From assembly GCF_000261365.1 (NCBI RefSeq), contig NZ_AJVC01000002.1, positions 248,001 to 312,000 on the forward strand: DNA of 64,000 nt, in the 5' to 3' direction. The stretch comes from Herbaspirillum sp. GW103. GTDB taxonomy: Bacteria; Pseudomonadota; Gammaproteobacteria; Burkholderiales; Burkholderiaceae_D. Made by a program: the position numbers and the translations under genes. Positions 8,021 to 59,976 of the stretch are shown one piece after another. Every line of letters starts with the position of its first letter. Positions within the stretch are counted from its first letter, which is position 1. The notes under the pieces were generated by a model. The model saw only the letters and a program-made list of their open reading frames with translations. It did no database searches and was not told where the DNA came from.

Positions 8021-8030
8021 GTTGGGATTC

Positions 8031-9431
8031 TCACCGGGCGGAGACTTCTTTCAGATGGAAATAATCGGCAAAGCAGACATTTTCCCATTGGCGGGGATCG
8101 GCCAAGACGTCATTGAAATACGTGATCGGCTTGGGCTCGTGAGTATAGGCTTTGACGACCAGTGATTGATGATCAGACTGTTGTACCGAGACGAATCGCT
8201 CTTCCATCAGCCGGCGCAGCGCGGCGCTTTCCTGCATTTCGTTCAACAAGGGCAGAATCGTAGCCTTGGGCATCAGGATGGCACTGCCCAATGCAGCCAG
8301 CAATACGAGCCCGAGCAAGCCGGCCACCACCGGACGGGCTATATCGTCGCGCGCCGAGCGCTTGCCATTGAGCCAGAGCGCTACCACCATGGCCATCACG
8401 TTGACCAGCAGGAAGTCGATGGTCCGGGAGCGCTCCGGTCCCAGTTCGTTGAGCGCATAAGCGCGCGGGAAGATCGCCGCCCACAATGCCAGCAACAGCA
8501 CACCGATCAGCACGGCTGGGCGCAAGCCCTGCGGCCTGGTACCCGGCGTCACGCGGCACGCCCACAGGAGGACGAAAAAGATCAGGGAGTGCAGGACGAC
8601 CGTCGCTGCGTATTTCCTGACCAGCAAGCTCAGGGACATCAGCAGTGCCGACACCAGGCTTGTGTCATGCGCTTTGCTCGCGGCACGTGCGAAGTTGCCG
8701 GGCGCCAGGCCAGCCACCAGCGTTCCTGCAAGGGCGGCGAGCGCGGCCAGCAGATAAAGTGTGGCACGGCGTTGCCGCAGCAGTAGCGAGCCGCTCAGCA
8801 GGACCACCAGCGTCAGATGCACGAGCGAAGCAACCTCGTTGAAACCGGCCAGCAAGAAACCACCGAGTGCCAGCCACAGAATACGGATCCCCTGCGCCTC
8901 GACGGCGCCCGCATAGATCTTCCACTCCTGCGCCATCAAGACCAGCAGCAAGGCGCATGCAGTGCCGTAGGTGGCGCCGCCGGAGAGCCAGAACAACGAT
9001 TCCCGCATCCGGAAGGTCGTCATCAGCATCATGCAGAACAGTACATAGAATGCCAACGAGCGCAGCCCGACCGCGCCCAGGAAATACCAGGCGGCCAGCA
9101 GATTGAGCAGCAGGATCGTCAGCGGTACCACGTAATAATGATCCAGCAGCAGCGATTGCGCGCCGGCAAAGGCCGAGATGAGGATGGTCGCGGCAAACCG
9201 CCCGCCCCAGTTGAAATATTCGAAGACAACGTTAGACCAAAGGCCACGCTGTTGTGCCCCGTGTCCGTAGCAGAAATCGTCGACCGCAGGAATGGCATGC
9301 CAGGCATTCCAGGCGATCCAGGCAAAAAGGCAAAATGCACCGGTCAGCAAGAGTACGCGCACGATAGCGGCCAGTCTTGCATCGGAAAAGCGGAGGTCGG
9401 CGCGGGGCGCGGTCGGGAAGGTGCTTGCCAT
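8031..9431 (-). CDS. DUF6056-like polytopic membrane protein, possible GtrC-type glycosyltransferase
   Basis: A 466-residue protein with about ten hydrophobic helices, starting MASTFPTAPRADLRF. After the first helix it has AVDDFCYGHGAQQRG, an acidic motif in a periplasmic loop like that of GT-C fold and GtrII/DUF6056 proteins. Sugar transferases of this layout take the lipid-linked sugar made by the GtrB partner and add it to surface glycans. The functional assignment rests mainly on gene order (membrane protein, GtrB, GtrA). Upstream in-frame ATGs exist, but 9431 leaves room for a promoter in the gap shared with the divergent LacI-type gene. Confidence 0.7.
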   Translation of the reverse strand: MASTFPTAPRADLRFSDARLAAIVRVLLLTGAFCLFAWIAWNAWHAIPAVDDFCYGHGAQQRGLWSNVVFEYFNWGGRFAATILISAFAGAQSLLLDHYYVVPLTILLLNLLAAWYFLGAVGLRSLAFYVLFCMMLMTTFRMRESLFWLSGGATYGTACALLLVLMAQEWKIYAGAVEAQGIRILWLALGGFLLAGFNEVASLVHLTLVVLLSGSLLLRQRRATLYLLAALAALAGTLVAGLAPGNFARAASKAHDTSLVSALLMSLSLLVRKYAATVVLHSLIFFVLLWACRVTPGTRPQGLRPAVLIGVLLLALWAAIFPRAYALNELGPERSRTIDFLLVNVMAMVVALWLNGKRSARDDIARPVVAGLLGLVLLAALGSAILMPKATILPLLNEMQESAALRRLMEERFVSVQQSDHQSLVVKAYTHEPKPITYFNDVLADPRQWENVCFADYFHLKEVSAR

Positions 9432-9506
9432 GGTGGAGCAATTCAGTCGGTTTTTGACCGGCGACATTGTACATAAGGGCAGGCCCATCCGGTGAGAAGT
9501 CCGGTT

Positions 9507-9520
9507 TGGTATCGCTACCA
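9507..9520. promoter_or_regulatory. Operator of the LacI-type regulator (single copy)
   Basis: TGGTATCGCTACCA, with inverted TGGTA/TACCA arms spaced by 4 bp, lies in the gap in front of the LacI-type gene. Two nearly identical sites lie before the glucarate dehydratase gene, so it is very probably an autoregulatory operator. Confidence 0.75.
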
Positions 9521-9534
9521 GCGGCGATGCTAAA

Positions 9535-10650
9535 ATGTCGCCCATGCCCGAACATAGTACCTTCCCCCCCGATTCCTCCATGGATGCGAACCGCAGCGCG
9601 CGCGACGACGACAGCACCGAACCGCGCCGTCGTGGTCCGCGCAAGAGTGCCGGCGGCATCACCCTGCGCGACGTGGCGCAGCTGGCCGGGGTGGCACCGA
9701 TCACCGCCTCGCGGGCGTTGAACACACCGGCGGCGGTCTCGCCCAAGGTCTTGCAGAAGGTGCGCGAGGCGGTCGAGAAGACCGGCTACGTCCCCAACCT
9801 GCTGGCCGGTGGACTGGCCTCCAACAAGAGCCGCCTGGTGGCGGTGGTAGTGCCCACCGTCATCGGACCGGTGTTCCAGGAAATCGTCCACACCCTCACC
9901 GAAACCCTGGCGGCGGCCGGTTACCAGGTCATGCTGGGCCAGAGCGGTTACGAAAACTCGCGCGAAGATGCACTGCTCGAAGCCATCATCGGTCGTCGTC
10001 CCGATGGCGTGGTGCTCACCGGCATCATGCGTTCGGCCGAGGCGCGCAAACGTCTGCTGGCCAGCGGCATTCCGGTGGTGGAGACCTGGGACCTGACCCC
10101 CACGCCCATCGACATGCTGGTGGGCTTCTCGCACGAGGCCATCGGCCGGGAGGTGTCGCGCTACCTGCATGCGCGTGGTCGCCACAAGGTGGCCGTGGTG
10201 GGCGGACGCGATGAACGCAGCCAGCGGCGCATGAATGCCTTTGCCGACGAATGCGCGGCGCTGGGCATGCAGCAGGGCAGGGCCTGCGTGCCGATGTATC
10301 ACGTCACTGCGCCCACCACACTGGGCCAGGGACGCCAGGGCCTGGCCGAACTGCTGCAGGCACGGCCCGACCTGGATGCCATCTTCTGCAGTTCCGACCT
10401 GCTGGCCCTGGGGGTGATGATCGAGGCGCAGAGCCGCGCGATTTCCATCCCCGGACAACTGGCCGTGGTCGGGTTCGGCGATCTCGAATTCTCCCGCGAC
10501 CTGCAGCCGCGCCTGACCACCGTGCGCATCGATGGCACCGGCATCGGCCAGCGGGCAGCACGCTTCATCATCGACCGCGCCTCGGGCATCGAGGTCAATG
10601 AACGCATCGTCGATGTCGGCTTCTCCATCATTGCGCGCGACAGCGCCTGA
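9535..10650 (+). CDS. LacI family transcriptional regulator of glucarate genes
   Basis: A regulator of up to 371 residues with an unusually long charged N-terminal extension before the DNA-binding domain. The helix-turn-helix and hinge read ITLRDVAQLAGVAPITASRA and VREAVEKTGYVPNLLAGGLA (about residues 40-90). A periplasmic-binding-protein-like effector domain follows (SRLVAVVVPTVIGPVF through FGDLEFSRDL). It resembles gluconate-type GntR regulators of the LacI family. The start is uncertain: a TAAAAT -10-like element overlaps the ATG at 9535, and ATGs at 9544 and 9580 are alternatives. Identical operators here and before gudD make it the local regulator, probably relieved by glucarate or a related sugar acid. 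Confidence 0.9.
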   Translation: MSPMPEHSTFPPDSSMDANRSARDDDSTEPRRRGPRKSAGGITLRDVAQLAGVAPITASRALNTPAAVSPKVLQKVREAVEKTGYVPNLLAGGLASNKSRLVAVVVPTVIGPVFQEIVHTLTETLAAAGYQVMLGQSGYENSREDALLEAIIGRRPDGVVLTGIMRSAEARKRLLASGIPVVETWDLTPTPIDMLVGFSHEAIGREVSRYLHARGRHKVAVVGGRDERSQRRMNAFADECAALGMQQGRACVPMYHVTAPTTLGQGRQGLAELLQARPDLDAIFCSSDLLALGVMIEAQSRAISIPGQLAVVGFGDLEFSRDLQPRLTTVRIDGTGIGQRAARFIIDRASGIEVNERIVDVGFSIIARDSA

Positions 10651-10722
10651 GTTTCCCCCTCTGCCTTTCATCCTCGCCCTGCCGAGATTTTAATGATGCC
10701 TTGAGGCAACAGGAAATCGCCA

Positions 10723-10780
10723 TTGACATCTCGATTTGGTACCGCTACCATTCTTTCATTCGAATTTGGTACCGCTACCA
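10723..10780 (+). promoter_or_regulatory. gudD promoter with two tandem operators
   Basis: TTGACA (10723-10728) and TACCAT (10746-10751) are spaced by 17 bp. The operator TGGTACCGCTACCA at 10737-10750 covers the spacer and -10 element, and a second copy lies at 10767-10780, 30 bp downstream. A bound LacI-type repressor would block this promoter directly. Confidence 0.75.
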
Positions 10781-10819
10781 AATCACGTCCTATCTTTTCC
10801 GCAAGGGAGAACGCTTCTC

Positions 10820-12199
10820 ATGACCCAGACTTCTGCTTCCGTAACGTCCTCGATGTCTTCGCCGGACCTGCACAAGGGGGCGCCGCGCGTGACCGCCATG
10901 CGCGTCATCCCGGTGGCCGGGCATGACAGCATGCTGTTGAACCTGTCCGGGGCGCACGGTCCGTATTTCACGCGCAACATCGTCATCCTCACCGATAGTG
11001 CGGGCAACACTGGCGTGGGCGAAGTGCCGGGCGGGGAGGGCATCCGCCAGACACTGGAGGATGCACGCGCACTGGTGGTGGGCCAGTCCATCGGTAACGT
11101 ACAGGGCATCCTCAACCGTGCACGTACTGCATTTGCGGACCGCGATGTGGGCGGGCGCGGCCTGCAGACCTTTGACCTGCGCATCGCCATCCACGCGGTG
11201 ACCGCGCTGGAGGCCGCCTTGCTGGATCTGCTGGGCAAGTTCCTTGACGTACCGGTGGCGGCCCTGCTGGGCGAAGGCCAGCAGCGTGACGAGGTGGAGA
11301 TGCTGGGCTATCTCTTCTACGTGGCCGACCGCAACAAGACCGATCTGCCGTACCTGGCTGCGCCCGAGGCCGACGACGACTGGCTGCGTCTGCGCCATGA
11401 AGCCGCACTCACGCCGCAGGCCGTGGTGCGCCTGGCCGAGGCAGCCTATGCCCGCTATGGTTTCAATGACTTCAAGCTCAAGGGCGGCGTCATGCGCGGC
11501 GAGGACGAGATCGCTGCCGTCACGGCCCTGGCCGAGCGCTTCCCCAAGGCGCGCATCACACTGGACCCCAACGGTGGCTGGCTGCTCAAGGATGCGATCC
11601 GCCTGTGTCGGGATCAGCACGATGTGCTGGCCTACGCGGAAGATCCCTGCGGCGCCGAGGACGGTTATTCGGGCCGCGAAGTGATGGCTGAATTCCGCCG
11701 TGCCACCGGCTTGCAGACCGCGACCAACATGGTGGCGACCGACTGGCGCCAGATGGGTCATGCGATCTCGCTGCAATCGGTGGACATCCCGCTGGCCGAT
11801 CCGCATTTCTGGACCCTGCAGGGCTCGGTGCGCGTGGCACAGATGTGCCATGAGTGGGGCCTGACCTGGGGTTCGCATTCGAACAATCACTTCGACATTT
11901 CGCTGGCCATGTTTACGCACGTCGCGGCCGCGGCGCCCGGCAAGATCACGGCCATCGATACTCACTGGATCTGGCAGGACGGCCAGCACCTCACGCGTGA
12001 ACCGCTGAAGATCATCGGGGGCAAGGTGCAGGTGCCGTGCAAGCCGGGCCTGGGCGTGGAGCTGGACATGGCGCAGGTGGAAGCGGCGCACCAGACCTAT
12101 CGCAACATGGGGCTGGGCGCGCGCGATGACGCGGTGGCCATGCAGTACCTCATCCCGGGCTGGAAGTTCGATCCCAAGAAACCTTGCCTGGTGCGTTGA
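10820..12199 (+). CDS. gudD: Glucarate dehydratase
   Basis: Enolase-superfamily enzyme of 459 residues that dehydrates D-glucarate to 5-keto-4-deoxyglucarate. The catalytic lysine region reads [15 protein letters not shown] and a metal-binding region reads [11 protein letters not shown]. Further ligands lie in [17 protein letters not shown] and [11 protein letters not shown], and the catalytic histidine region is [15 protein letters not shown]. These match GudD closely, including length. The ATG at 10820 follows AAGGGAGA. An operator-controlled promoter precedes it and an MFS transporter follows after 113 bp. Downstream aldolase and kinase genes of the pathway are not in the window. Confidence 0.95.
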
Positions 12200-12312
12200 G
12201 CACGAACCTTCCTGTTTTTCAGCAGGGCCGCGACAAGAGCGCGCTGCAAGCGCCGGCGGCCTGAATTTTCTTTCATCCACCGTCAGTACGGGCTCAACAG
12301 AGGAGACAACCC

Positions 12313-13668
12313 GTGAATCCATCCCAGTCATCCCCCGCCGGCAACCTGGCGCTCACCTCGGCGGTGAGCAAGATCAAGTGGCGCATCCTGCCGCTGTTCG
12401 TGGCCATGTTCATCATCAACTACATCGACCGCGTCAACATTGGTTTCGTGCGCAGTCATCTCTCCACCGACCTGGGGATCGGTGCCGCCGCCTTCGGGCT
12501 GGGGGCAGGCTTGTTCTTCGTCGGCTATGCGATCTTTGAAGTCCCTTCCAACATGCTGCTGCAACGCTATGGCGCCCGCGCCTGGTTGACGCGCATCATG
12601 TTCACCTGGGGCCTGGTGGCGGCCTGCATGGCCTTCGTGCAGAGCGAGACCAGTTTCTATGTCATGCGCTTCCTGCTGGGAGTGGCCGAGGCCGGATTCT
12701 TCCCGGGCGTGGTGTATTACTTCACGCAATGGCTGCCCAACCATGAGCGCGGCCGGGCGATGGCCATCTTCCTGTCGGGGTCGGCGATTGCCTCCATCCT
12801 CTCCGGCCCGATCACCGGCGCGCTGTTGCTCATCGAGGGCGGCGGACTGCATGGCTGGCAGTGGATGTTCATCATTGAAGGTGCGGCATCGATGGTGTTC
12901 TGCGTGGTGGTGTGGCTGGTGCTGGACTCGAGTCCGCGCGATGCGAAGTGGCTCTCTGCGGAGCAACGCGAGGCACTGGCTACGGTCATCGCGGCCGAGC
13001 AGGAGCAACGCGCGGCCAATCGTCCGGCGCATGTGTCGGCGCTGACACTGCTGCGCGATCCGCAGATCGTGTTGTTCTGCCTGATCTATTTCGCCATCCA
13101 GCTGACCATTTACGGTGCGACCTTCTGGTTGCCGACCATCATCAAGAAGATGGGGCACTTCAATGATTTCCAGGTGGGCCTGTTCAACACGATCCCATGG
13201 ATCGTGGCCATTGGAGCGATGTATCTCTTCGCGGTGCTGGCGGCGCGGCACAAGAAGCCGCAGATGTGGGTGGCCACGGCATTGGTGATTTCGGCCGTCG
13301 GCATGGCCATCTCGGCCTCGACCGGTCCGGTGATCGGCTTCGCGGCAGTGTGTTTCGCCGCCCTCGGGTTCAAGGCAGCCTCGTCGCTGTTCTGGCCGAT
13401 TCCGCAAGCCTACCTGGATGCCCGCATCGCAGCAGCGGTGCTGGCACTGGTCAATTCGCTGGGCAACCTGGGCGGCTTCTTCGCGCCGGCGACCTTCGGC
13501 TATCTGGAGCAGAAGACCGGTTCCATCGAGGGCGGTCTGTATGCCTTGTCGGCAGCCTCGCTGGTGGCGGCGGTGCTGGTGTTCCTGGCCCGTACGCGGC
13601 CTTCGGCGCAGGATGGCGGTGATGCGGTTCAGGCACAGGGCGAGGCGGTGGCCAAGCGCGCGGCCTGA
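12313..13668 (+). CDS. MFS transporter, anion:cation symporter type (probable sugar-acid uptake)
   Basis: A 451-residue transporter with about 12 membrane helices. FIINYIDRVNIGFVRSHL near the N-terminus and the segment GVAEAGFFPGVVYYFTQWLP are characteristic of the ACS family (GudP, GarP and related carriers). It begins with GTG at 12313 behind AGGAGA. Its position 113 bp after gudD makes glucarate or galactarate the most likely substrate, though tartrate-like acids are handled by close relatives. A strong hairpin lies 40 bp after the stop. Probable role: proton-coupled uptake of the sugar acid that the dehydratase then consumes. Confidence 0.88.
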   Translation: MNPSQSSPAGNLALTSAVSKIKWRILPLFVAMFIINYIDRVNIGFVRSHLSTDLGIGAAAFGLGAGLFFVGYAIFEVPSNMLLQRYGARAWLTRIMFTWGLVAACMAFVQSETSFYVMRFLLGVAEAGFFPGVVYYFTQWLPNHERGRAMAIFLSGSAIASILSGPITGALLLIEGGGLHGWQWMFIIEGAASMVFCVVVWLVLDSSPRDAKWLSAEQREALATVIAAEQEQRAANRPAHVSALTLLRDPQIVLFCLIYFAIQLTIYGATFWLPTIIKKMGHFNDFQVGLFNTIPWIVAIGAMYLFAVLAARHKKPQMWVATALVISAVGMAISASTGPVIGFAAVCFAALGFKAASSLFWPIPQAYLDARIAAAVLALVNSLGNLGGFFAPATFGYLEQKTGSIEGGLYALSAASLVAAVLVFLARTRPSAQDGGDAVQAQGEAVAKRAA

Positions 13669-50021: not shown

Positions 50022-50651
50022 ATGACAAAAATACTTGTAGTCGATGACCACGCGGTCGTACGGGCAGGTGTGCACCACTTCATTTCGGAAATTCCGTCGA
50101 TGGAAATCGGCGGCGAGGCCAGCACGGCGGAAGAAGCCATCCGCCTGGTGCGTACCCAGGACTGGGATATCGTGTTGCTCGATATCGCCATGCCCGACAA
50201 GAGTGGCGTGGAAGTCTTGAAGCAGATCAAGCGTGAAAAGCCGGAGCTGCCGGTGCTGATGCTGTCGATGCACCCCGAGAGCCGCTATGCGGTGCAGGTG
50301 CTGCGCAGCGGCGCCTCCGGCTACGTGCAGAAGGAAGCGCTGGCCACCGAGCTGGTCAACGCCATCAACACCATCCTGCGCGGGCACAAGTACATCAGCT
50401 ACGGCGTGGCCGAGCTGCTCACCAGCGAGCCGGTGGATTCCGAGAAGCCGCTGCACGAGACGCTCTCGCAGCGCGAGTACGAGATCTTCTACAAGCTTGG
50501 CCAGGGCCAGGGCGTGACGCAGATCGCCGACGAGCTGTGCCTGTCGGTCAAGACGGTCAGTACCTACCGTTCGCGGGTGCTGCAGAAGATGAGCATGACC
50601 AATAACGCGGACATCATTTATTACGCGATCAAGAACAACCTGATCGACTGA
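50022..50651 (+). CDS. LuxR/NarL family response regulator
   Basis: A 209-residue regulator. Receiver domain: VVDDHAVVRAGVHHFI with the acidic pocket, phosphoacceptor D54 in LLDIAMPDKSG, and the conserved lysine in YVQKEALATE. DNA-binding domain: LSQREYEIFYKLGQGQGVTQ then CLSVKTVSTYRSRVL, the LuxR helix-turn-helix. It forms a two-component unit with the receiver-only gene and the histidine kinase that follow. No strong ribosome-binding site is visible. Paired inverted repeats lie at its promoter. Confidence 0.94.
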   Translation: MTKILVVDDHAVVRAGVHHFISEIPSMEIGGEASTAEEAIRLVRTQDWDIVLLDIAMPDKSGVEVLKQIKREKPELPVLMLSMHPESRYAVQVLRSGASGYVQKEALATELVNAINTILRGHKYISYGVAELLTSEPVDSEKPLHETLSQREYEIFYKLGQGQGVTQIADELCLSVKTVSTYRSRVLQKMSMTNNADIIYYAIKNNLID

Positions 50652-50717
50652 GCCCTGACACCCCGGGCGGATATGTTGCCGTGACGGCCGATCTGGCCGC
50701 GCGGCAGGCAAGGAAAA

Positions 50718-51230
50718 GTGGTACGGCGCATCATGGATGACATTCTCAACAGCAGGCTCCAGCGCGACAGCGACGGGACGTCCTTGCGGATCTTCCTGGT
50801 GGAGGATTCGGAGGACGTACGGGACCTGATCGTGGAGAGCCTGGCCGAGATCGCCGGTGTACGCCTGGTGGGGTACGCCGAGAGCGAGCTGGAGGCGTTG
50901 CGCCATCTGCGTGAGAACAGCTATGACGTCCTGATCCTGGATATCCAGTTGAAGCAGGGCAATGGCATGAGCCTGCTGCAGGCGCTGGCCCGCTCCAATA
51001 CGCGGCGCCAGAGTGAGCTCAAGGTGGTGTTCAGCAATCATGTGAGTCCGACGTATCGGCGCGTGGGAGTGCAATGCGGGGTGCAGCACTTCTTCGACAA
51101 GTCTTCGGAACTGCCGCTGCTGTGCGATCTGCTGGAGGAACTGGCCAGACAGAGAGCAGGGCGAACCGGGCGGAGTTCGTCGAGCAACAATACGCCACCG
51201 CAGGGGCCGGCCCAGACGGGCGGGATGTAA
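50718..51230 (+). CDS. Receiver-only response regulator
   Basis: A protein of 170 residues from GTG at 50718 (165 from ATG at 50733). It has one receiver domain and no output domain: IFLVEDSEDVRDLI, phosphoacceptor aspartate in LILDIQLKQGNG (D75 from the GTG) and the lysine in FFDKSSELPL. The C-terminal 25 residues are polar and probably disordered. It may act as a phosphate sink or connector for the kinase encoded at 51391. It lies 66 bp after the LuxR-type regulator. Confidence 0.87.
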   Translation: MVRRIMDDILNSRLQRDSDGTSLRIFLVEDSEDVRDLIVESLAEIAGVRLVGYAESELEALRHLRENSYDVLILDIQLKQGNGMSLLQALARSNTRRQSELKVVFSNHVSPTYRRVGVQCGVQHFFDKSSELPLLCDLLEELARQRAGRTGRSSSSNNTPPQGPAQTGGM

Positions 51231-51390
51231 GTTTTTTTGCTGCATCAATTTGCGCAGCCAGCCAGCATGTCGCCAGGGCAGTTCGGCGCGACCTTGATGG
51301 ACCAGACAATCAGAACCGATCATGGCAGGCACGCCGCCACAATAGGCGCGCATGTGGCACGGGTCGCACTAGAGCAAGGGATTTTCGACG

Positions 51391-53424
51391 ATGCAGAAGA
51401 ACAATGACGGCCTTCGTCCGTCCTCCGCCGATCTCCAGAACAGCGCATCGGTAGAGTATTTTGCCGCGTCCCACGCGCATGACAGCAGCATGGTGACGCT
51501 GTCCATGGGCCTGTCCATGGCAGTGATCCTGCTGGGTGTGGTGGTGCTGGTGACGGGCTTGCTGGGCGAGGAATACCGGCGTTTGCTCTCGGGCCTGCTG
51601 GAGGTACGGGAGGTGACGGCAGCGGGCTTCATTCTGGGCGCTTCGGCGCTCTATCTGCGCTGCATGAATTCGAGTGCCCGCCGACCCTCCCTGCGCCAGC
51701 TGGGCACTGCGCTGGCCGCACTGCTGCTGGTGCTGGGCCTGGCCACACTGGTGCATGGGGGCATCGTTTTTCTGGGATGGCTGCCGCTGGATGGCACCCA
51801 TCCGATCTCGCCGCTGGCCATTTCCCCCTTGCTGTCGGTGGGCTTCGTGCTGATGGCCCTGGCCCTGCTGCTGCAGGACTGGCGCCTGCTGGGCGGTTAT
51901 TATCCGGCTGAATACCTGTCCTTCACGCTGGTGGGCTTGTCGGCCATTCCGCTGGTGGGCTATCTGTATGACGTGCCCCAGTTCATCTATCTCGATTTTC
52001 CGCTGCCGGTATCGCTGCTCTCGGCGCTGGTGTTCGCTCTGCTGGGGGCGGCGCTGCTGATGGCGCGTCCCTCCCATGCGCTCATGGCCGTGATCCTGCG
52101 CATCGCGCCGGGCGGCCAGATGCTGCGCCACCTGCTGCCGCAGACCTTGTTCCTGCTGCTGGCCTTCAGTCTGTTGCTCAACTGGGGCATGACGCATGGC
52201 TGGATCCTGCCGGAACTGGTGCTGCCGACGCTGACGCTGATCAACGGCGTGATCGTGCTCTTCATCTTCTGGGGCTCGGCCAGCCGGCTCGACAGCGAAT
52301 ATGGCGAGCGTACGCGCAATGCGCAGAAGCTGGCCGAAACCAGTGCTCTGCTCAATGCCGTCAGTGAAAGCACCAGCGATCCGATCTTCGTCAAGAACCG
52401 ACAGGGCCTGATGATCTTTGCCAACCCGGCGACCTTGCACAAGCTGGGCAAGACCTGGGAAGAGACCATGTACCGTTCCAGTCGCGAGCTCTTCATGGTG
52501 CAGGAAGAGGCCGATGTCGTGGATCGCGATGACCGCCGCGTCATGGCCTCGGGCAAGCCCGAGAAGCTGGAGCAGACGTTGCACTTGCCCGAAGGCGTGG
52601 TGACCTTCCAGACCGCCAAGGTGCCCTGGTTCGGCAAGGATGGCAGCGTACAGGGCGTCATCGGCATCAGCACCGATATCACCGAGCGCAAGCAGGCCGA
52701 GGATGAATTGCGCCAGCGCGAAAGCCAGCTGGAGAAGACCGTGATCCAGCGTACCGCGCTGCTGCGCGAACTGACCAATCACCTGGAGACGGTGCGCGAG
52801 GAAGAAAAACGCGCCATCGCGCGCGAGCTGCACGACAACATGGGGGCGTCGCTGACGGCCTTGTCGATGCACCTGGAGGGGGTTTACCAGATCCTGCCGC
52901 CGGATGAAAAATGGGCCGACCGCAAGACCCGCATGCAGGGCCTGATGAAATCGCTGGTCGCCACCACGCGGCGCATCCAGACCGAGCTGCGGCCCAATAC
53001 GCTGGACCTGTTCGGCCTGAAGGCAGCGATCTCCGAACAGCTCGACGAACTGCATGAGCGCACCGGCATTGCCTGCCACGCCAGCCTGCCCGATGAAGAC
53101 GTGGACGTGGGGCATGAGATGGAAATCGCCATCTACCGCATGTTGCAGGAAATGCTCAACAACGTGACCAAGCACGCCAAGGCCAGCAAGGTCGACGTGA
53201 TCCTCGACGTCGACGAGGATCACGTGGCGCTGACCGTGCGTGACGATGGCGTGGGTATTCCCGAAGAGCGGCGCGACAACCACAAGACCTACGGTCTGCG
53301 CGGTCTGCGCGAACGGGCCACGTTCTTTGGCGGAGAGGTCGATATCCGCTCCACGCCGGGCAAGGGGGCGCTCATCAGCATCAGCCTGCCGATCCGTCCC
53401 GAGCTGGTCTCCAGCGAGACCTGA
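51391..53424 (+). CDS. Membrane histidine kinase, NarX/DegS-like (HisKA_3)
   Basis: A 677-residue sensor kinase. About eight membrane helices fill residues 30-305. A PAS domain follows (LLNAVSESTSDPIFVKNRQG to GVIGISTDITERKQ, about 325-445), then a coiled coil. The HisKA_3 dimerisation region carries the phosphorylated H481 in RAIARELHDNMGASLTAL. The ATPase domain has MLQEMLNNVTKHAKAS (N box), VRDDGVGI (G1) and YGLRGLRERATFFGG. This class pairs with LuxR-type regulators, here the one at 50022. The multi-helix input domain suggests sensing within the membrane; the signal is unknown. Confidence 0.93.
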   Translation: MQKNNDGLRPSSADLQNSASVEYFAASHAHDSSMVTLSMGLSMAVILLGVVVLVTGLLGEEYRRLLSGLLEVREVTAAGFILGASALYLRCMNSSARRPSLRQLGTALAALLLVLGLATLVHGGIVFLGWLPLDGTHPISPLAISPLLSVGFVLMALALLLQDWRLLGGYYPAEYLSFTLVGLSAIPLVGYLYDVPQFIYLDFPLPVSLLSALVFALLGAALLMARPSHALMAVILRIAPGGQMLRHLLPQTLFLLLAFSLLLNWGMTHGWILPELVLPTLTLINGVIVLFIFWGSASRLDSEYGERTRNAQKLAETSALLNAVSESTSDPIFVKNRQGLMIFANPATLHKLGKTWEETMYRSSRELFMVQEEADVVDRDDRRVMASGKPEKLEQTLHLPEGVVTFQTAKVPWFGKDGSVQGVIGISTDITERKQAEDELRQRESQLEKTVIQRTALLRELTNHLETVREEEKRAIARELHDNMGASLTALSMHLEGVYQILPPDEKWADRKTRMQGLMKSLVATTRRIQTELRPNTLDLFGLKAAISEQLDELHERTGIACHASLPDEDVDVGHEMEIAIYRMLQEMLNNVTKHAKASKVDVILDVDEDHVALTVRDDGVGIPEERRDNHKTYGLRGLRERATFFGGEVDIRSTPGKGALISISLPIRPELVSSET

Positions 53425-55602: not shown

Positions 55603-55922
55603 GGAGGTTCTCCTTTCTTATTGAGTTCGTTCTTGCCCGCCAGGGTGCAAGCGCCGGGTCAATCGTGAAGCTGGACCCATCTTAGGGGGAGCGCGGCCGC
55701 GGCACGATCAGCGCGCCACGCAATGTGCTGTAGGAAAACCCGGCAAGCGCGGGTAGGTAACCGCGCCCCAGCGAGCGCTGCCAACTTGGTGCAAAGCACA
55801 ATGGAAGTGCGGCCCGCGCCCGATTTGATCGCGCCGGACAGCTGCTGCCGGCCGCCCTGGCACGCCTGGAGGCTGCCCGCAATCGCAGTGCCGGCAAGGC
55901 TTTACGGTCGGTGATCCGGTTC
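55603..55922. other. Divergent gap before the nitrate promoter
   Basis: TGTAGGAAAAC at 55729-55739, another copy of the island motif, lies upstream of the DUF3309 gene. The rest is GC-rich without a supportable gene. Binding sites for a sigma-54 activator would be expected in this stretch, but no clear palindrome was found by eye. Confidence 0.4.
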
Positions 55923-55938
55923 TGGCACGCTCTTTGCT
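55923..55938 (+). promoter_or_regulatory. Sigma-54 promoter of the nitrate transport operon
   Basis: TGGCACG-CTCT-TTGCT matches the -24/-12 sigma-54 consensus at every conserved position, with correct GG-to-GC spacing. Nitrogen-regulated transcription through NtrC is the obvious inference. Confidence 0.85.
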
Positions 55939-55952
55939 GAACTCCGGACAAA

Positions 55953-56059
55953 GCGCAGCAATGCGCAAGCAATGTGAGGGTGCGGCCAATGGCGGTCCTG
56001 CCCTCCAGGACAAAGGCGTCTTCCGATATGGCTCATCCATGTCGGGACACGCCTTTTTT
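55953..56059 (+). promoter_or_regulatory. Leader with two hairpins and an intrinsic terminator (attenuator)
   Basis: Hairpin 1 is GCGC-AGCAAT-GCGC (55953-55966). Hairpin 2 spans 55976-56005 with arms GAGGGTGCGGCC and GGTCCTGCCCTC and the hexaloop AATGGC. The terminator spans 56012-56059: AAAGGCGT/ACGCCTTT outer stem, CCGATATGG/CCATGTCGG inner stem, then T residues. The order is that of ANTAR-controlled leaders such as nasF, where the protein binds two hexaloop hairpins (A at loop position 1, G at 4) and prevents termination. Hairpin 2 fits both loop positions; hairpin 1 has A at position 4. Confidence 0.65.
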
Positions 56060-56101
56060 GTTTGGGCTTTCATCAAACCGCAACGCAAGGGGAAAGGTGC
56101 T

Positions 56102-57421
56102 ATGGAATCCAGGAGTCAGGTGGACAAGGCAGGCGCGCCGCTGTCGGGCAAGCAAGGCGCACAAGGCCAGACGATCACGGCAGCCGCCGGAGTCAACGGC
56201 AAGCGCCGCACGCTTGTGCAGGGTGCCGCAGTGGCCGCCGGTGGCGGCATGCTGGGCCTGGCGCCGGGCGGTGCCTGGGCGGCCGGTTCGGACAAGCCCG
56301 AAAAGGAAGAAGTCAAAATCGGCTTCATCCCCTTGACCGATTGCGCCTCGGTGGTGATGGCCTCGGTGCTGGGTTTCGACAAGAAGTACGGCATCAAGAT
56401 CGTCCCCAGCAAGGAAGCCTCCTGGGCCGGCGTGCGCGACAAGCTCACCAACGGCGAACTGGACGCGGCCCACGTGCTGTATGGCCTGATCTACGGTGTG
56501 CAGCTGGGTATCGGCGGACAGAAGAAGGACATGGCCGTGTTGATGGGGCTGAACCACAATGGCCAGGCCATCACCTTGTCCAAAAAGCTGGCCGAGAAGG
56601 GGGCCGTCGATGGCGCCTCGCTCTACAAGCTCATGCAGACCGAGAAGCGCGAATACACCTTTGCCCAGACCTTCCCCACCGGCACCCACGCCATGTGGCT
56701 GTATTACTGGCTGGCCGCCAATGGCATCAATCCGATGAAGGACGCCAAGGTCATCACCGTGCCGCCGCCGCAGATGGTGGCCAATATGCGGGTGGGCAAC
56801 ATGGATGGCTTCTGCGTGGGCGAACCCTGGGGGCATCGCGCCATTGTCGATGGCGTGGGCATCACCGCCATCACTTCCCAGGACATCTGGAAGGACCATC
56901 CGGAGAAGGTGCTGGGCACTTCGCGCGAATTCGTACAGAAATACCCCAACACCTGCCGCGCGATGATGGCTGCCATCCTGGAGGCCAGCAAGTGGATCGA
57001 TGCTTCACTGGTCAACAAGAACAAGATGGCCGAAGTGATCGCCGACAAGTCCTATGTGAACACCAGCAAGGACGTGATCGACCAGCGCATCCTCGGCCGC
57101 TACCAGAACGGCCTGGGCAAGACCTGGGACGATCCCAACTACATGAAGTTCTATGAAGAAGGCCAGGTCAACTTCCCCTTCCTCTCCGACGGCATGTGGT
57201 TCATGACCCAGCATCGCCGCTGGGGCCTGTTGAAGAGCGATCCGGATTACCTGGCCGTGGCCAAATCGGTGAACCAGATCGATCTCTACAAGGATGCCGC
57301 CGCCATGACCAAGACACCGCTGCCCAAGGAGGTGATGCGCAGTTCGAAACTGGTGGATGGCATCGTGTGGGACGGCAAGAATCCGGCGGCCTACGCGCAG
57401 TCCTTCAAGATCAAGGTGTAA
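56102..57421 (+). CDS. nasF: Nitrate-type ABC transporter substrate-binding protein (NrtA/NasF/CmpA family)
   Basis: A 439-residue protein with a twin-arginine-type signal (KRRTLVQGAAVAAGGG, cut near GGAWA), so it is probably exported folded. The binding domain starts VKIGFIPLTDCASVVMASVL and contains DKLTNGELDAAHVLYGLIYG, PTGTHAMWLYYWLAANGINP and VGEPWGHRAIVDG, characteristic of NrtA/CmpA. Nitrate is the likely ligand; bicarbonate or nitrite relatives exist. AAGGGGAAAGG precedes the ATG. It heads a four-gene operon behind a sigma-54 promoter and an attenuator-like leader. Confidence 0.9.
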   Translation: MESRSQVDKAGAPLSGKQGAQGQTITAAAGVNGKRRTLVQGAAVAAGGGMLGLAPGGAWAAGSDKPEKEEVKIGFIPLTDCASVVMASVLGFDKKYGIKIVPSKEASWAGVRDKLTNGELDAAHVLYGLIYGVQLGIGGQKKDMAVLMGLNHNGQAITLSKKLAEKGAVDGASLYKLMQTEKREYTFAQTFPTGTHAMWLYYWLAANGINPMKDAKVITVPPPQMVANMRVGNMDGFCVGEPWGHRAIVDGVGITAITSQDIWKDHPEKVLGTSREFVQKYPNTCRAMMAAILEASKWIDASLVNKNKMAEVIADKSYVNTSKDVIDQRILGRYQNGLGKTWDDPNYMKFYEEGQVNFPFLSDGMWFMTQHRRWGLLKSDPDYLAVAKSVNQIDLYKDAAAMTKTPLPKEVMRSSKLVDGIVWDGKNPAAYAQSFKIKV

Positions 57422-57480: not shown

Positions 57481-58428
57481 ATGAGTGCAGTCGCAGAAAG
57501 CATCATGGGTGACAACGCCAAGCCCGCCGGCAACAGCCATGGCGGATCTGTTGTCGCCATCGAGCCGGCGCGCACGGCGCCCGGCAACCAGGCGCTGACA
57601 GCGCCCGCCGCCGTCCCTGCCAGGACGCGCAGCCTGCGCAGGAAGCTTGCCGCTGGCGGTCTGTTCATGCGCGTGGTGCCACCGCTTCTGGGTATGGCGC
57701 TGCTGGTGCTGGTATGGCAGATCATCGCCTTGAAGACCGCCAGTTTCCCCACGCCATGGGTGACCCTGAAGGAGGCGGGCGTGATGTTCTCCGATCCCTT
57801 CTACCGCAACAGTCCCAATGACCAGGGCATAGGCTGGAACGTGCTGGCCTCGCTGCAGCGGGTTGGCATGGGCTTCGGGCTGGCGGCGCTGGTGGGCATT
57901 CCGCTGGGCTTTGCGATCGGCCGGGTGGAATTCCTCTCGCGCATGTTCGGCCCCATCATCAGTCTGCTGCGTCCGGTCTCGCCGCTGGCCTGGCTGCCCA
58001 TTGGCCTGCTGGTCTTCAAGTCGGCCAATCCGGCGGCGATCTGGTCGATCTTCATCTGTTCGATCTGGCCGATGATCATCAACACCGCCGTCGGTGTGCA
58101 GCGCGTGCCGCAGGATTACATGAACGTGGCGCGGGTCTTGAATCTCTCCGAATGGAAGGTGCTGACCAAGATTCTCTTTCCCTCGGTATTGCCCTACATG
58201 CTGACCGGCGTACGTCTTTCCATCGGTACCGCCTGGCTGGTGATCGTGGCCGCCGAGATGCTGACCGGGGGCGTGGGCATCGGCTTCTGGGTCTGGGATG
58301 AATGGAACAACCTGAACGTGCCGCACATCATCATCGCCATCGTTATCATCGGGGTGGTGGGGCTGGTGCTGGAACAGTTGCTGGTGGCGCTGGCCAAGGC
58401 ATTTACCTACGAGCAGGTCAACAACTAA
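57481..58428 (+). CDS. nasE: Nitrate-type ABC transporter permease (NrtB/NasE family)
   Basis: A 315-residue inner-membrane permease with a long N-terminal cytoplasmic part, then about six helices. LGMALLVLVWQIIALK opens the membrane domain. VFKSANPAAIWSIFICSIWP and the EAA loop NVARVLNLSEWKVLTKILFP are typical of NrtB. It forms the channel for the binding protein encoded upstream. The ATPase gene follows after 12 bp. Confidence 0.92.
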   Translation: MSAVAESIMGDNAKPAGNSHGGSVVAIEPARTAPGNQALTAPAAVPARTRSLRRKLAAGGLFMRVVPPLLGMALLVLVWQIIALKTASFPTPWVTLKEAGVMFSDPFYRNSPNDQGIGWNVLASLQRVGMGFGLAALVGIPLGFAIGRVEFLSRMFGPIISLLRPVSPLAWLPIGLLVFKSANPAAIWSIFICSIWPMIINTAVGVQRVPQDYMNVARVLNLSEWKVLTKILFPSVLPYMLTGVRLSIGTAWLVIVAAEMLTGGVGIGFWVWDEWNNLNVPHIIIAIVIIGVVGLVLEQLLVALAKAFTYEQVNN

Positions 58429-58440
58429 GGGACGCGGATC

Positions 58441-59253
58441 ATGGACAACCTCAACGGCAAATTCATCGACATCCACGGTGTGGAGATGGTGTTCCACACC
58501 AGGAAGGGCGTCTTCCATGCCCTGCGTGAGATCAACCTGACGGTGGCCAAGGGCGAGTTCGTCACCCTGATCGGCCACTCCGGTTGCGGCAAGTCGACCT
58601 TGCTGAACCTGATTGCGGGTCTGCTCCAGCCCAGCGAGGGCGTGCTGCTCTGTGCCAACCGCGAGATCGGCGGCCCGGCGCCGGAACGTGCGGTGGTGTT
58701 CCAGAACCATTCGCTGCTGCCCTGGCTGACCTGCTACGAAAACATCTATCTCGGTGTGGAGCGTGTCTTCGGGGCGACCGAAAATCGCACCCAGTTACGC
58801 GACCGTACCCGTGCCGCGCTGGCGCTGGTGGGCCTGACCGCCGCCGAGAGCAAGCGCCCCAATGAAATCTCCGGCGGCATGAAGCAGCGCGTGGGCATTG
58901 CCCGTGCGCTGGCCATGGAGCCCAAGGTCTTGCTGATGGATGAACCCTTCGGCGCGCTGGATGCCCTCACGCGCGCCCATCTGCAGGATGAGTTGTTGAA
59001 GATCGTCGCCAAGACCGACTCCACGGTGGTGATGGTGACCCACGATGTGGATGAAGCGGTGTTGCTGTCGGACCGCATCGTGATGATGACCAACGGTCCC
59101 GCCGCAACCATCGGTGAGATCGTGGAGGTGAAGCTGCCGCGTCCGCGTGACCGCGTCACCCTGGCGCAGGATGTGCAATATGGTGCCTATCGCACGGCGG
59201 TGCTGGAATTCCTGTATCGCAAGCAGGCGCATCCGGCGCGCGAGGCCGCTTGA
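58441..59253 (+). CDS. nasD: Nitrate-type ABC transporter ATPase (NrtD/NasD family)
   Basis: A 270-residue ATPase with Walker [19 protein letters not shown]-loop in [20 protein letters not shown], signature [15 protein letters not shown], Walker [15 protein letters not shown] and [18 protein letters not shown]. The NHSLLPWLT segment is typical for nitrate/sulfonate/taurine importers, and [13 protein letters not shown] near the end matches NrtD. No C-terminal regulatory domain is present. Confidence 0.94.
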
Positions 59254-59286
59254 GCCGGCGATCAATTGCATGGGAAGGAGATGTTC

Positions 59287-59976
59287 ATGAGCAGCCTGGC
59301 TGTCATCGAGGAGAGCCCCGCCGCAGGGGCTGAACCGCCCGAATCCACACCGCTGTCCGGCGAGGTGTTCGGGGCCTTGATCAATCTCTCGGGCCGCCGC
59401 CGTTTCACCTCGCAGCGGCTGGTGCTCTACGCTGTGTTGGCCGCTCAGGGCCAGCTGGAGGCGTGCGCCACAGCGCGCGAAGCGCTGGCGCTGTTTCGCA
59501 GCGCGCACACGGCCCTGATCCGGCGCTCGGCCGGCTTGCCCGGCGTATTCTGTCCGGAACTGGAAGAGGTGTATTTCGGCCGCAGCCGGGGCGATGCCCG
59601 CATCACCGCCTTCGCCGAACTGGCCCAGCGCGCGCTCAATGCCATCGAAGACAAACTGAAGACCGCACCGGCCCTGCTGGAACAACTGGTGCAGGAAACC
59701 ACGCCCTTGCTGGCCGTGTTGAACGAGATCACGGCGATCTACGAAGCACAATCGAAGAAGCACGCACGGCTCATGCGCGAGCAACTGCGCGGCATCATGA
59801 CCGACATCGAAACCATCGCGCGCCAAGCCAAGATGGTGGCCTTCAACGCCCGCATCGTGGCGGCCCGTTCGGGCCAGGCCGGCAAGGAATTCTCGGTGGT
59901 GGCCGGGGTGCTCTCCAACATCACCGGCGAAATCGATGAACTGGTCAAGGAAGCCTTGAGCGGTGCCGCGGCCTGA
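59287..59976 (+). CDS. Soluble P-box / chemoreceptor-tip protein of the nitrate operon
   Basis: A 229-residue protein without signal peptide or membrane helix. Residues 31-45 (LINLSGRRRFTSQRL) resemble the nitrate-binding P-box of NarX/NarQ and the PilJ N-terminal family. The middle is helical. Residues 174-215 (IETIARQAKMVAFNARIVAA, RSGQAGKEFSVVAGVLSNIT) resemble the chemoreceptor signalling hairpin tip, but several conserved residues are changed. It could be a cytosolic nitrate or nitrite sensor. GAAGGAG with 6-base spacing supports the ATG at 59287. It is the last gene of the operon. Confidence 0.75.
   Translation: MSSLAVIEESPAAGAEPPESTPLSGEVFGALINLSGRRRFTSQRLVLYAVLAAQGQLEACATAREALALFRSAHTALIRRSAGLPGVFCPELEEVYFGRSRGDARITAFAELAQRALNAIEDKLKTAPALLEQLVQETTPLLAVLNEITAIYEAQSKKHARLMREQLRGIMTDIETIARQAKMVAFNARIVAARSGQAGKEFSVVAGVLSNITGEIDELVKEALSGAAA

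Follow-up and report, generated by a model that had tools for sequence, protein, structure and literature searches.

The nrtABC locus and its promoter

The window, that is, the whole stretch of 64,000 nucleotides that was analyzed, belongs to a Herbaspirillum genome and carries a nitrate ABC transporter operon preceded by a sigma-54 promoter and a structured leader (Table 1). The permease and ATPase genes were identified as nrtB and nrtC by curated models, and because these are its neighbors, nitrate was assigned as the substrate of the nrtA-like binding protein, in which we read a twin-arginine-like signal. The next gene, probably the fourth of the operon, encodes a protein with a PilJ-like segment and a partial MCP signaling domain, and no membrane segment was seen by eye. 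One stretch of this protein resembles the nitrate-binding P-box of NarX. A close homologue (E < 1e-90) is present in 24 of the 34 genus genomes. The gene was considered as the missing sensor of NasT and rejected, because it accompanies both of the regulator types described below, and some genomes with either type lack it. The same genome encodes another NrtA-like ABC transporter (37% identical; locus L142, approximately 8028–13355) beside a PAS histidine kinase, and a generic scan of this locus gave no ANTAR dual hairpin with a terminator.

The -24/-12 element of the original prediction is borne out by comparison with the genus orthologues: 29 of 30 match TGGCAY-N4/5-TTGC strictly, and the remaining one has AGGCAC. 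The transcript is predicted to start near 55949. All 30 orthologues have a GCAC-N7-GTGC dyad, which we take to be the NtrC-type consensus, no more than 250 bp upstream of the promoter. Approximately 2.5 kb upstream of the leader, a LuxR-type response regulator and a PAS histidine kinase are encoded at 50022–53424; their NarL- and NarQ-like scores were far below the curated cut-offs.

Table 1. Positions of the genes and sequence elements of the nrtABC locus in the window
Feature	Position	Strand	Basis or detail
NtrC-like site, GGTGC-AAA-GCAC-AATGGAA-GTGC	55788–55810	+	dyad conserved upstream of the promoter
Sigma-54 promoter, TGGCACGCTCTTTGC (-24 GG, -12 GC)	55923–55937	+	strict pattern among genus orthologues
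P0, 5' hairpin GCGCA-GCAA-TGCGC	55953–55966	+	also readable as 4 bp around AGCAAT
P1, ANTAR hairpin 1, loop AATGGC at 55988–55993	55978–56003	+	pairing and covariation in the genus alignment
P2, ANTAR hairpin 2, AGGAC-AAAGGC-GTCTT, 5 bp, loop at 56012–56017	56007–56022	+	pairing and loop conservation
Intrinsic terminator, mutually exclusive with P2	56012–56056, U tract to 56059	+	fold energy and covariation
nrtA-like nitrate ABC transporter binding protein (NMT1_2)	56102–57421	+	PF13379, E 1.7e-103
nrtB, nitrate ABC permease	57481–58428	+	TIGR01183, 253.6 bits (cut-off 209.05)
nrtC, nitrate ABC ATPase	58441–59253	+	TIGR01184, 329.2 bits (cut-off 291.8)
PilJ-like/MCP-signaling protein	59266–59976	+	PF13675 and PF00015 above cut-off

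Two ANTAR-type hairpins and a terminator

Known ANTAR elements consist of two hexaloop hairpins whose first loop base is A and whose fourth is G (A1/G4), and the second hairpin overlaps a terminator (available text of PMC3369931 and PMC7496416). In the window, P1 has 10-nt arms around its loop with one C·C mismatch, located where the other genus rows form a pair, and the predicted fold extends it to 13 pairs with one mismatch and one bulge. The loops of P1 and P2 are both A1/G4 and are both closed by a C:G pair. The 5' arm of the terminator uses the whole P2 loop and four stem bases of the P2 3' arm (56018, 56019, 56021, and 56022), and the terminator ends 42 nt upstream of the ATG at 56102. 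The terminator by itself has a fold energy of about -27.5 to -28.0 kcal/mol and P2 by itself -3.5 kcal/mol; the weakness of P2 counts against an ANTAR switch unless a protein holds the hairpin. The stretch 55930–56110 is more stable than its shuffles (z = -3.24; one of 200 shuffles as good).

The original prediction had placed an ANTAR-type leader here, with an upstream hairpin (loop AGCAAT) as a variant first member and the AATGGC hairpin as the second. Antitermination of the ANTAR type combined with an NtrC/sigma-54-type promoter is supported, and the strong intrinsic terminator before the first gene (-27.5 kcal/mol) stands, but the hairpin pair was mis-assigned. The AATGGC hairpin does follow the A1/G4 rule and is P1. 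Its rule-following partner is P2, inside the 5' arm of the terminator, which is the hairpin that was missed; a role of the AGCAAT hairpin (P0) as the first member of the pair is not supported.

Comparison within the genus supports this assignment. Both loops are A1/G4 in 30 of 30 orthologues, and they lie 23–25 nt apart. In an alignment of 29 distinct rows (alignment A1), 97.7% of the cells of P1 and 97.9% of those of P2 are paired, and four pairs of P1 have changed on both sides, so that the compensatory changes called for by the original prediction were found. For the two hairpins taken jointly, 97.8% of the cells are paired and both sides have changed in 22 cells (8.4 in shuffles; none of 500 as high); slid versions of the same pairing pair in 37–56% of cells; the number of pairs with both-side changes is five, equaled by 29 of 500 shuffles. 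In the terminator, 94.3% of the cells are paired and 9 of the 19 pairs show both-side changes, a number that none of 500 shuffles reached. The row without five T's (L006) was left out of one script-made alignment and kept in alignments A1 and A2.

On both strands of the 64-kb window, this leader is the one A1/G4 dual hairpin with an overlapping terminator; the chance expectation on the plus strand is a mean of 0.01 (100 first-order resamples). At E 0.1, a leader model (R1) searched across the whole genome matched only the leader and its own antisense. A whole-genome search with the ANTAR-leader pattern gave nine matches, one of which is this leader, against six in the reversed control. The sequence features of an ANTAR target are present: two hexaloop hairpins of at least 3 bp, A1/G4 in both, overlap of the second with a terminator, and an ANTAR protein encoded in the genome.

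An unlinked NIT-ANTAR protein

A single ANTAR gene was found in the genome (E 2.2e-21), as the original prediction would demand. It is located on another contig (L002, 11101–12360) and encodes a NasR-like NIT-ANTAR protein of 419 amino acids with a PF08376 domain (170.2 bits) and a C-terminal PF03861 domain (74.7 bits). The protein matches NasR of Klebsiella oxytoca (4akk) over both domains (E 6.8e-44). With positions numbered by hand on the 4akk alignment, Glu175, Arg176, Arg340, Lys341, and Lys347 of NasR are kept, and Lys345 is replaced by Arg. In the available text of PMC7496416, Glu175 and Arg176 belong to the predicted nitrate pocket, RNA-binding roles are given to Arg340, Lys341, Lys345, and Lys347, and the K345R variant of NasR is reported as similar to the wild type. 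No NasT-type gene was found in the window's genome, where the NIT-ANTAR protein was the sole ANTAR match.

We read the neighbors of the NIT-ANTAR gene as urea carboxylase and allophanate hydrolase, perhaps a guanidine-use cluster. Because the gene is unlinked to nrtA and stands beside urea genes, another target is possible; a generic scan of this neighborhood (L002) gave no ANTAR hairpin pair with a terminator. Another genus genome, G021 (locus L048), encodes a NIT-ANTAR protein and has no close nrtA, and its best R1 match is weak (G021:C1:24357-24437, 23.6 bits, E 0.0019), so its NIT-ANTAR protein may also have another target.

Probable regulators of the leader in related bacteria

A close nrtA orthologue was detected in 30 of the 34 genus genomes searched and an ANTAR gene in 33, the remaining genome being 63% complete; all 30 genomes with this leader have an ANTAR gene. 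A NIT-ANTAR frame occurs in 12 of the 34, namely 11 with this nrtA and G021, and two members of the NIT-ANTAR clade (G007 and G011) also have a second ANTAR frame of 216 amino acids. The other 19 genomes with this nrtA have a NasT-type ANTAR frame a few hundred bases upstream of the gene. One such NasT-type protein (L040) has, besides its ANTAR domain, a receiver-like stretch that falls below the Pfam cut-off. At E 1e-40, a NIT-ANTAR protein was found in 14 of the 392 genomes sampled from the family, and 12 of these belong to this genus; at E 1e-60, it was found in 18 of 399 sampled from the order, in some of which its gene stands directly upstream of nrtA and the leader.

A tree of NrtA with 108 rows was built by a quick method. 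In it, the 11 rows whose NIT-ANTAR gene is unlinked, including that of the window, form one clade (SH-aLRT 84), which is nested in a group with a support of 100 whose other seven rows have NasT beside the leader. Excluded from the tree were L062–L071 (regarded as duplicating genus genomes), L210–L309 (fragments with no nrtA), and L197–L203, L206, L208, and L209 (no NrtA match or below 36% identity). The nested position suggests that the regulator changed while the RNA stayed. The lineage of the window has probably exchanged NasT for a NasR-type protein while keeping the RNA target, as judged from this tree and the gene distribution. The support of the clade is moderate, and the gain of NIT-ANTAR may have preceded the loss of NasT. 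With this locus, a change of regulator on a single RNA element, from NasT to a NasR type, becomes testable within one genus.

In two relatives (L084 and L087), nrtA is preceded by a sigma-54-like promoter, with neither a leader match there nor an ANTAR match in the genome. In others, for example L091, L099, and L101, the leader is absent at nrtA and ANTAR genes are kept, so the co-occurrence of leader and ANTAR gene is one-sided. A tblastn search with NrtA (E 1e-5) over the flanking sequence of 80 named loci, which was short in some cases, found no second NrtA/NasS-like gene, and the NasT-type genes beside nrtA in the L063–L140 flanks stand without such a neighbor.

Further matches to R1 were found in two genus genomes (G029:C303:25814-25893, E 9.4e-8, and G032:C2:2423340-2423417, E 5.3e-7), possibly second ANTAR leaders before other genes. 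Weak second matches (E 0.004–0.09) occur in L074 (8255–8336), L076 (8863–8945), L073 (9595–9677), L105 (8119–8211), and L120 (9055–9147). The gene that follows is of MFS type in the first four, an assignment made by Pfam for L074 alone, and NirB-like in L120. Three Duganella-type loci have such a weaker leader ahead of an MFS-type gene. These matches point to a putative small regulon.

The additional 5' hairpin

P0 was found in 29 of the 30 genus orthologues and is missing from L032. In Herbaspirillum, its stem GCGCA/TGCGC is nearly invariant and its loop drifts, reading as 6–7 nt on a 4-bp stem. In the window, the loop has no G at position 4. Among the Herbaspirillum species having P0, 17 of the 18 that are NasT-linked keep this G, versus 1 of 11 in the NIT clade, the exception being the first-branching row (L012).

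Nearly all of 90 distinct Oxalobacteraceae leaders from outside Herbaspirillum (set A4, distinct leaders with P2 called; L243 was dropped for a mis-called promoter) have a hexaloop as the first hairpin of the transcript. Of the 59 rows in one register, 56 have A at position 1 and 57 have G at position 4; all 31 rows in the other register have both. On alignment A5 (58 of the 59 rows; the fragment of L251 ended within an arm), 96.6% of the cells of P0 are paired, compared with 20–56% for slid versions, although the register was picked by the base before the loop and may tilt slightly toward pairing. On this alignment, 24 cells changed on both sides versus 6.8 in shuffles (none of 500 as high), and the pairs with such changes number three, no more than in shuffles (251 of 500). 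A stem that varies with pairing kept and an A1/G4 loop elsewhere in the family suggest an ANTAR hairpin as the ancestor. P0 apparently is a decayed form of a third A1/G4 ANTAR-type hairpin that is well conserved in other Oxalobacteraceae, and the leader seems to descend from a three-hairpin form.

Alternatively, P0 might now serve at the start site to stabilize the RNA or as an operator in the DNA, and not act as an ANTAR site. The nearly invariant stem with a drifting loop and the location of P0 at about +5 of the predicted transcript would suit such a role, while the variable stem and A1/G4 loop seen elsewhere in the family speak against it; overall, we regard it as somewhat unlikely.

The distribution of P0 was followed over 220 loci with a promoter called, in 191 of which P2 was recognized by pattern (165 distinct leaders). 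The 29 loci without P2, among which nine are NasT-linked and two NIT-linked, are in part true losses and in part failures of the pattern. Outside Herbaspirillum, canonical P0 is present in 80 of 97 distinct NasT-linked leaders, 2 of 18 NIT-linked, and 18 of 21 unlinked; one of the two NIT-linked calls (L130) was judged spurious, as was the single canonical call among 29 distinct Herbaspirillum leaders (L016). On the tree, labels were set by hand for these two (degenerate) and for L120, L195, and L204 (absent). A general association of P0 with NasT is without statistical support on the NrtA tree, because the tree offers only three independent pairs. P0 has decayed in NasT-linked lines as well, including several NasT-linked Comamonadaceae with a decayed hairpin or none, and it is absent from several NIT-linked leaders that keep P1 and P2. 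The Duganella leaders ahead of the MFS gene read as two-hairpin. The loss of G4 in the NIT clade fits decay after the swap of regulator, though as a single event.

Proposed mechanism

Here, we propose that nrtABC is controlled from a promoter of the sigma-54/NtrC type and through an antitermination leader of the ANTAR type. From the sequence comparisons above, we consider this with high confidence the best full explanation of the locus. Under nitrogen limitation, NtrC and sigma-54 would start transcription. By default, the nascent RNA would fold the terminator and transcription would stop before nrtA. When nitrate is present, the NIT-ANTAR protein encoded elsewhere would, by homology, bind P1 and P2 via their A1/G4 hexaloops; with P2 held, the 5' arm of the terminator could not pair, and nrtABC would be transcribed. 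The switch is of a known kind, and very probably it passes transcription only when the nitrate-sensing ANTAR protein binds.

A terminator that merely attenuates constitutively, or one that responds to a non-ANTAR factor, is improbable. The unlinked position of the NIT-ANTAR gene would be in keeping with this reading, but it is opposed by the A1/G4 loops conserved in all 30 orthologues, the geometry of the overlap between P2 and the terminator, the covariation, and the presence of an ANTAR gene in all genus genomes that have the leader. The least probable reading, and one very hard to sustain, makes P0 and P1 the ANTAR pair and treats the P0 loop as a variant: P0 is widespread in the genus and A1/G4-type in other Oxalobacteraceae, but it lacks G4 in the window and nearly throughout the NIT-ANTAR clade, is missing from L032 and several NIT-linked leaders in which P1 and P2 stay, and would not, together with P1, itself overlap the terminator.

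Relationship to known ANTAR systems

Among the known systems closest to the proposed antitermination switch is the nasF/NasR system of K. oxytoca. The nasF operon is NtrC/sigma-54 driven, and nasR adjoins nasF. The two systems share a NIT-ANTAR regulator homologous in both domains and a nitrate assimilation operon as the target. The nasF leader also has two A1/G4 hexaloop hairpins with the second overlapping a terminator (available portions of PMC3369931 and PMC7496416). The locus described here differs in its unlinked regulator, in nrtABC as the target, and in the extra P0; moreover, most relatives have a NasT-type gene at this leader. In the NasS–NasT systems of Paracoccus and Bradyrhizobium, nitrate-related leaders are bound by NasT, an ANTAR protein (accessible text of PMC3795266 and PMC6759348). 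A NasT-type gene likewise adjoins this leader in most sampled relatives, whereas none was found in the window's genome.

Purified Paracoccus NasT is reported to be oligomeric, in a state that broadly fits a hexamer (available text of PMC3795266), and this report leads to a bolder reading in which NasT can use more than two hairpins. The ancestral Burkholderiales leader may have been a P0–P1–P2 ANTAR element on which a NasT oligomer chose between overlapping pairs; after the swap to a dimeric NIT-ANTAR protein, P0 would have lost its recognition loop and P1–P2 would have been kept. We put this forward tentatively, as a scenario that is possible but has the odds somewhat against it. A survey describes the ANTAR RNA element as always a dual stem-loop, and the available main text has no wording for third, triple, or tandem stems (PMC8164766). 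If the three-hairpin ancestry is true, the locus would represent a naturally occurring exchange of RNA-binding regulators on a single RNA target, a case that comes with a third ANTAR-type hairpin kept or lost, and the narK RNA and P11 discussed below would both be parts of this sigma-54/ANTAR element.

Similarity to the narK RNA and P11 families

No Rfam family matched the window at the gathering score. In a search of 221 bases, the leader matched RF03032 (narK RNA) with 30.2 bits (E 3e-4; gathering 43.2). As we read the RF03032 consensus, it comprises a sigma-54 GGCaC-N5-UUGC followed by C-AACGGC-G, corresponding to P1, and CGAC-AAAGAC-GUCG, corresponding to P2; the family annotates only P1 as paired. 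The window differs in having P0 and a longer distance between promoter and P1, so that the promoter part of RF03032 aligns to P0. A NIT-linked two-hairpin leader (L193) reached 37.8 bits with the promoter in register. The other permissive match on the 221 bases, Ms_IGR-7 (21.2 bits, E 0.027, gathering 45), was taken as chance.

The consensus of RF00625 (P11, a Pseudomonas sRNA) is similarly arranged, with UUGGCACA..UGC, a C-AACGau-G hairpin, and then GGACAAAGGCGUCC leading into a terminator. L289 matched P11 with 34.9 bits, below the gathering score of 70, and the window had no match to it at E 1. In a search of 20 loci, only L193 with RF03032 and L289 with RF00625 reached E 0.01, and the locus of the window's leader (L177) did not; another 11 loci all scored below gathering for both families. 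From these consensus structures, we infer that RF03032 and RF00625 both describe putative sigma-54 promoters with ANTAR leaders, a function suggested here for both RNAs. In titles and abstracts, mostly from outside subscription journals, there was no such statement on narK RNA or P11, and judged by title and abstract, none of the papers considered appears to treat the present leader. Among the relatives, L072 also carries at 11144–11206 a match to RF02278, the Betaproteobacteria toxic small RNA, above the gathering score (56.1 bits).
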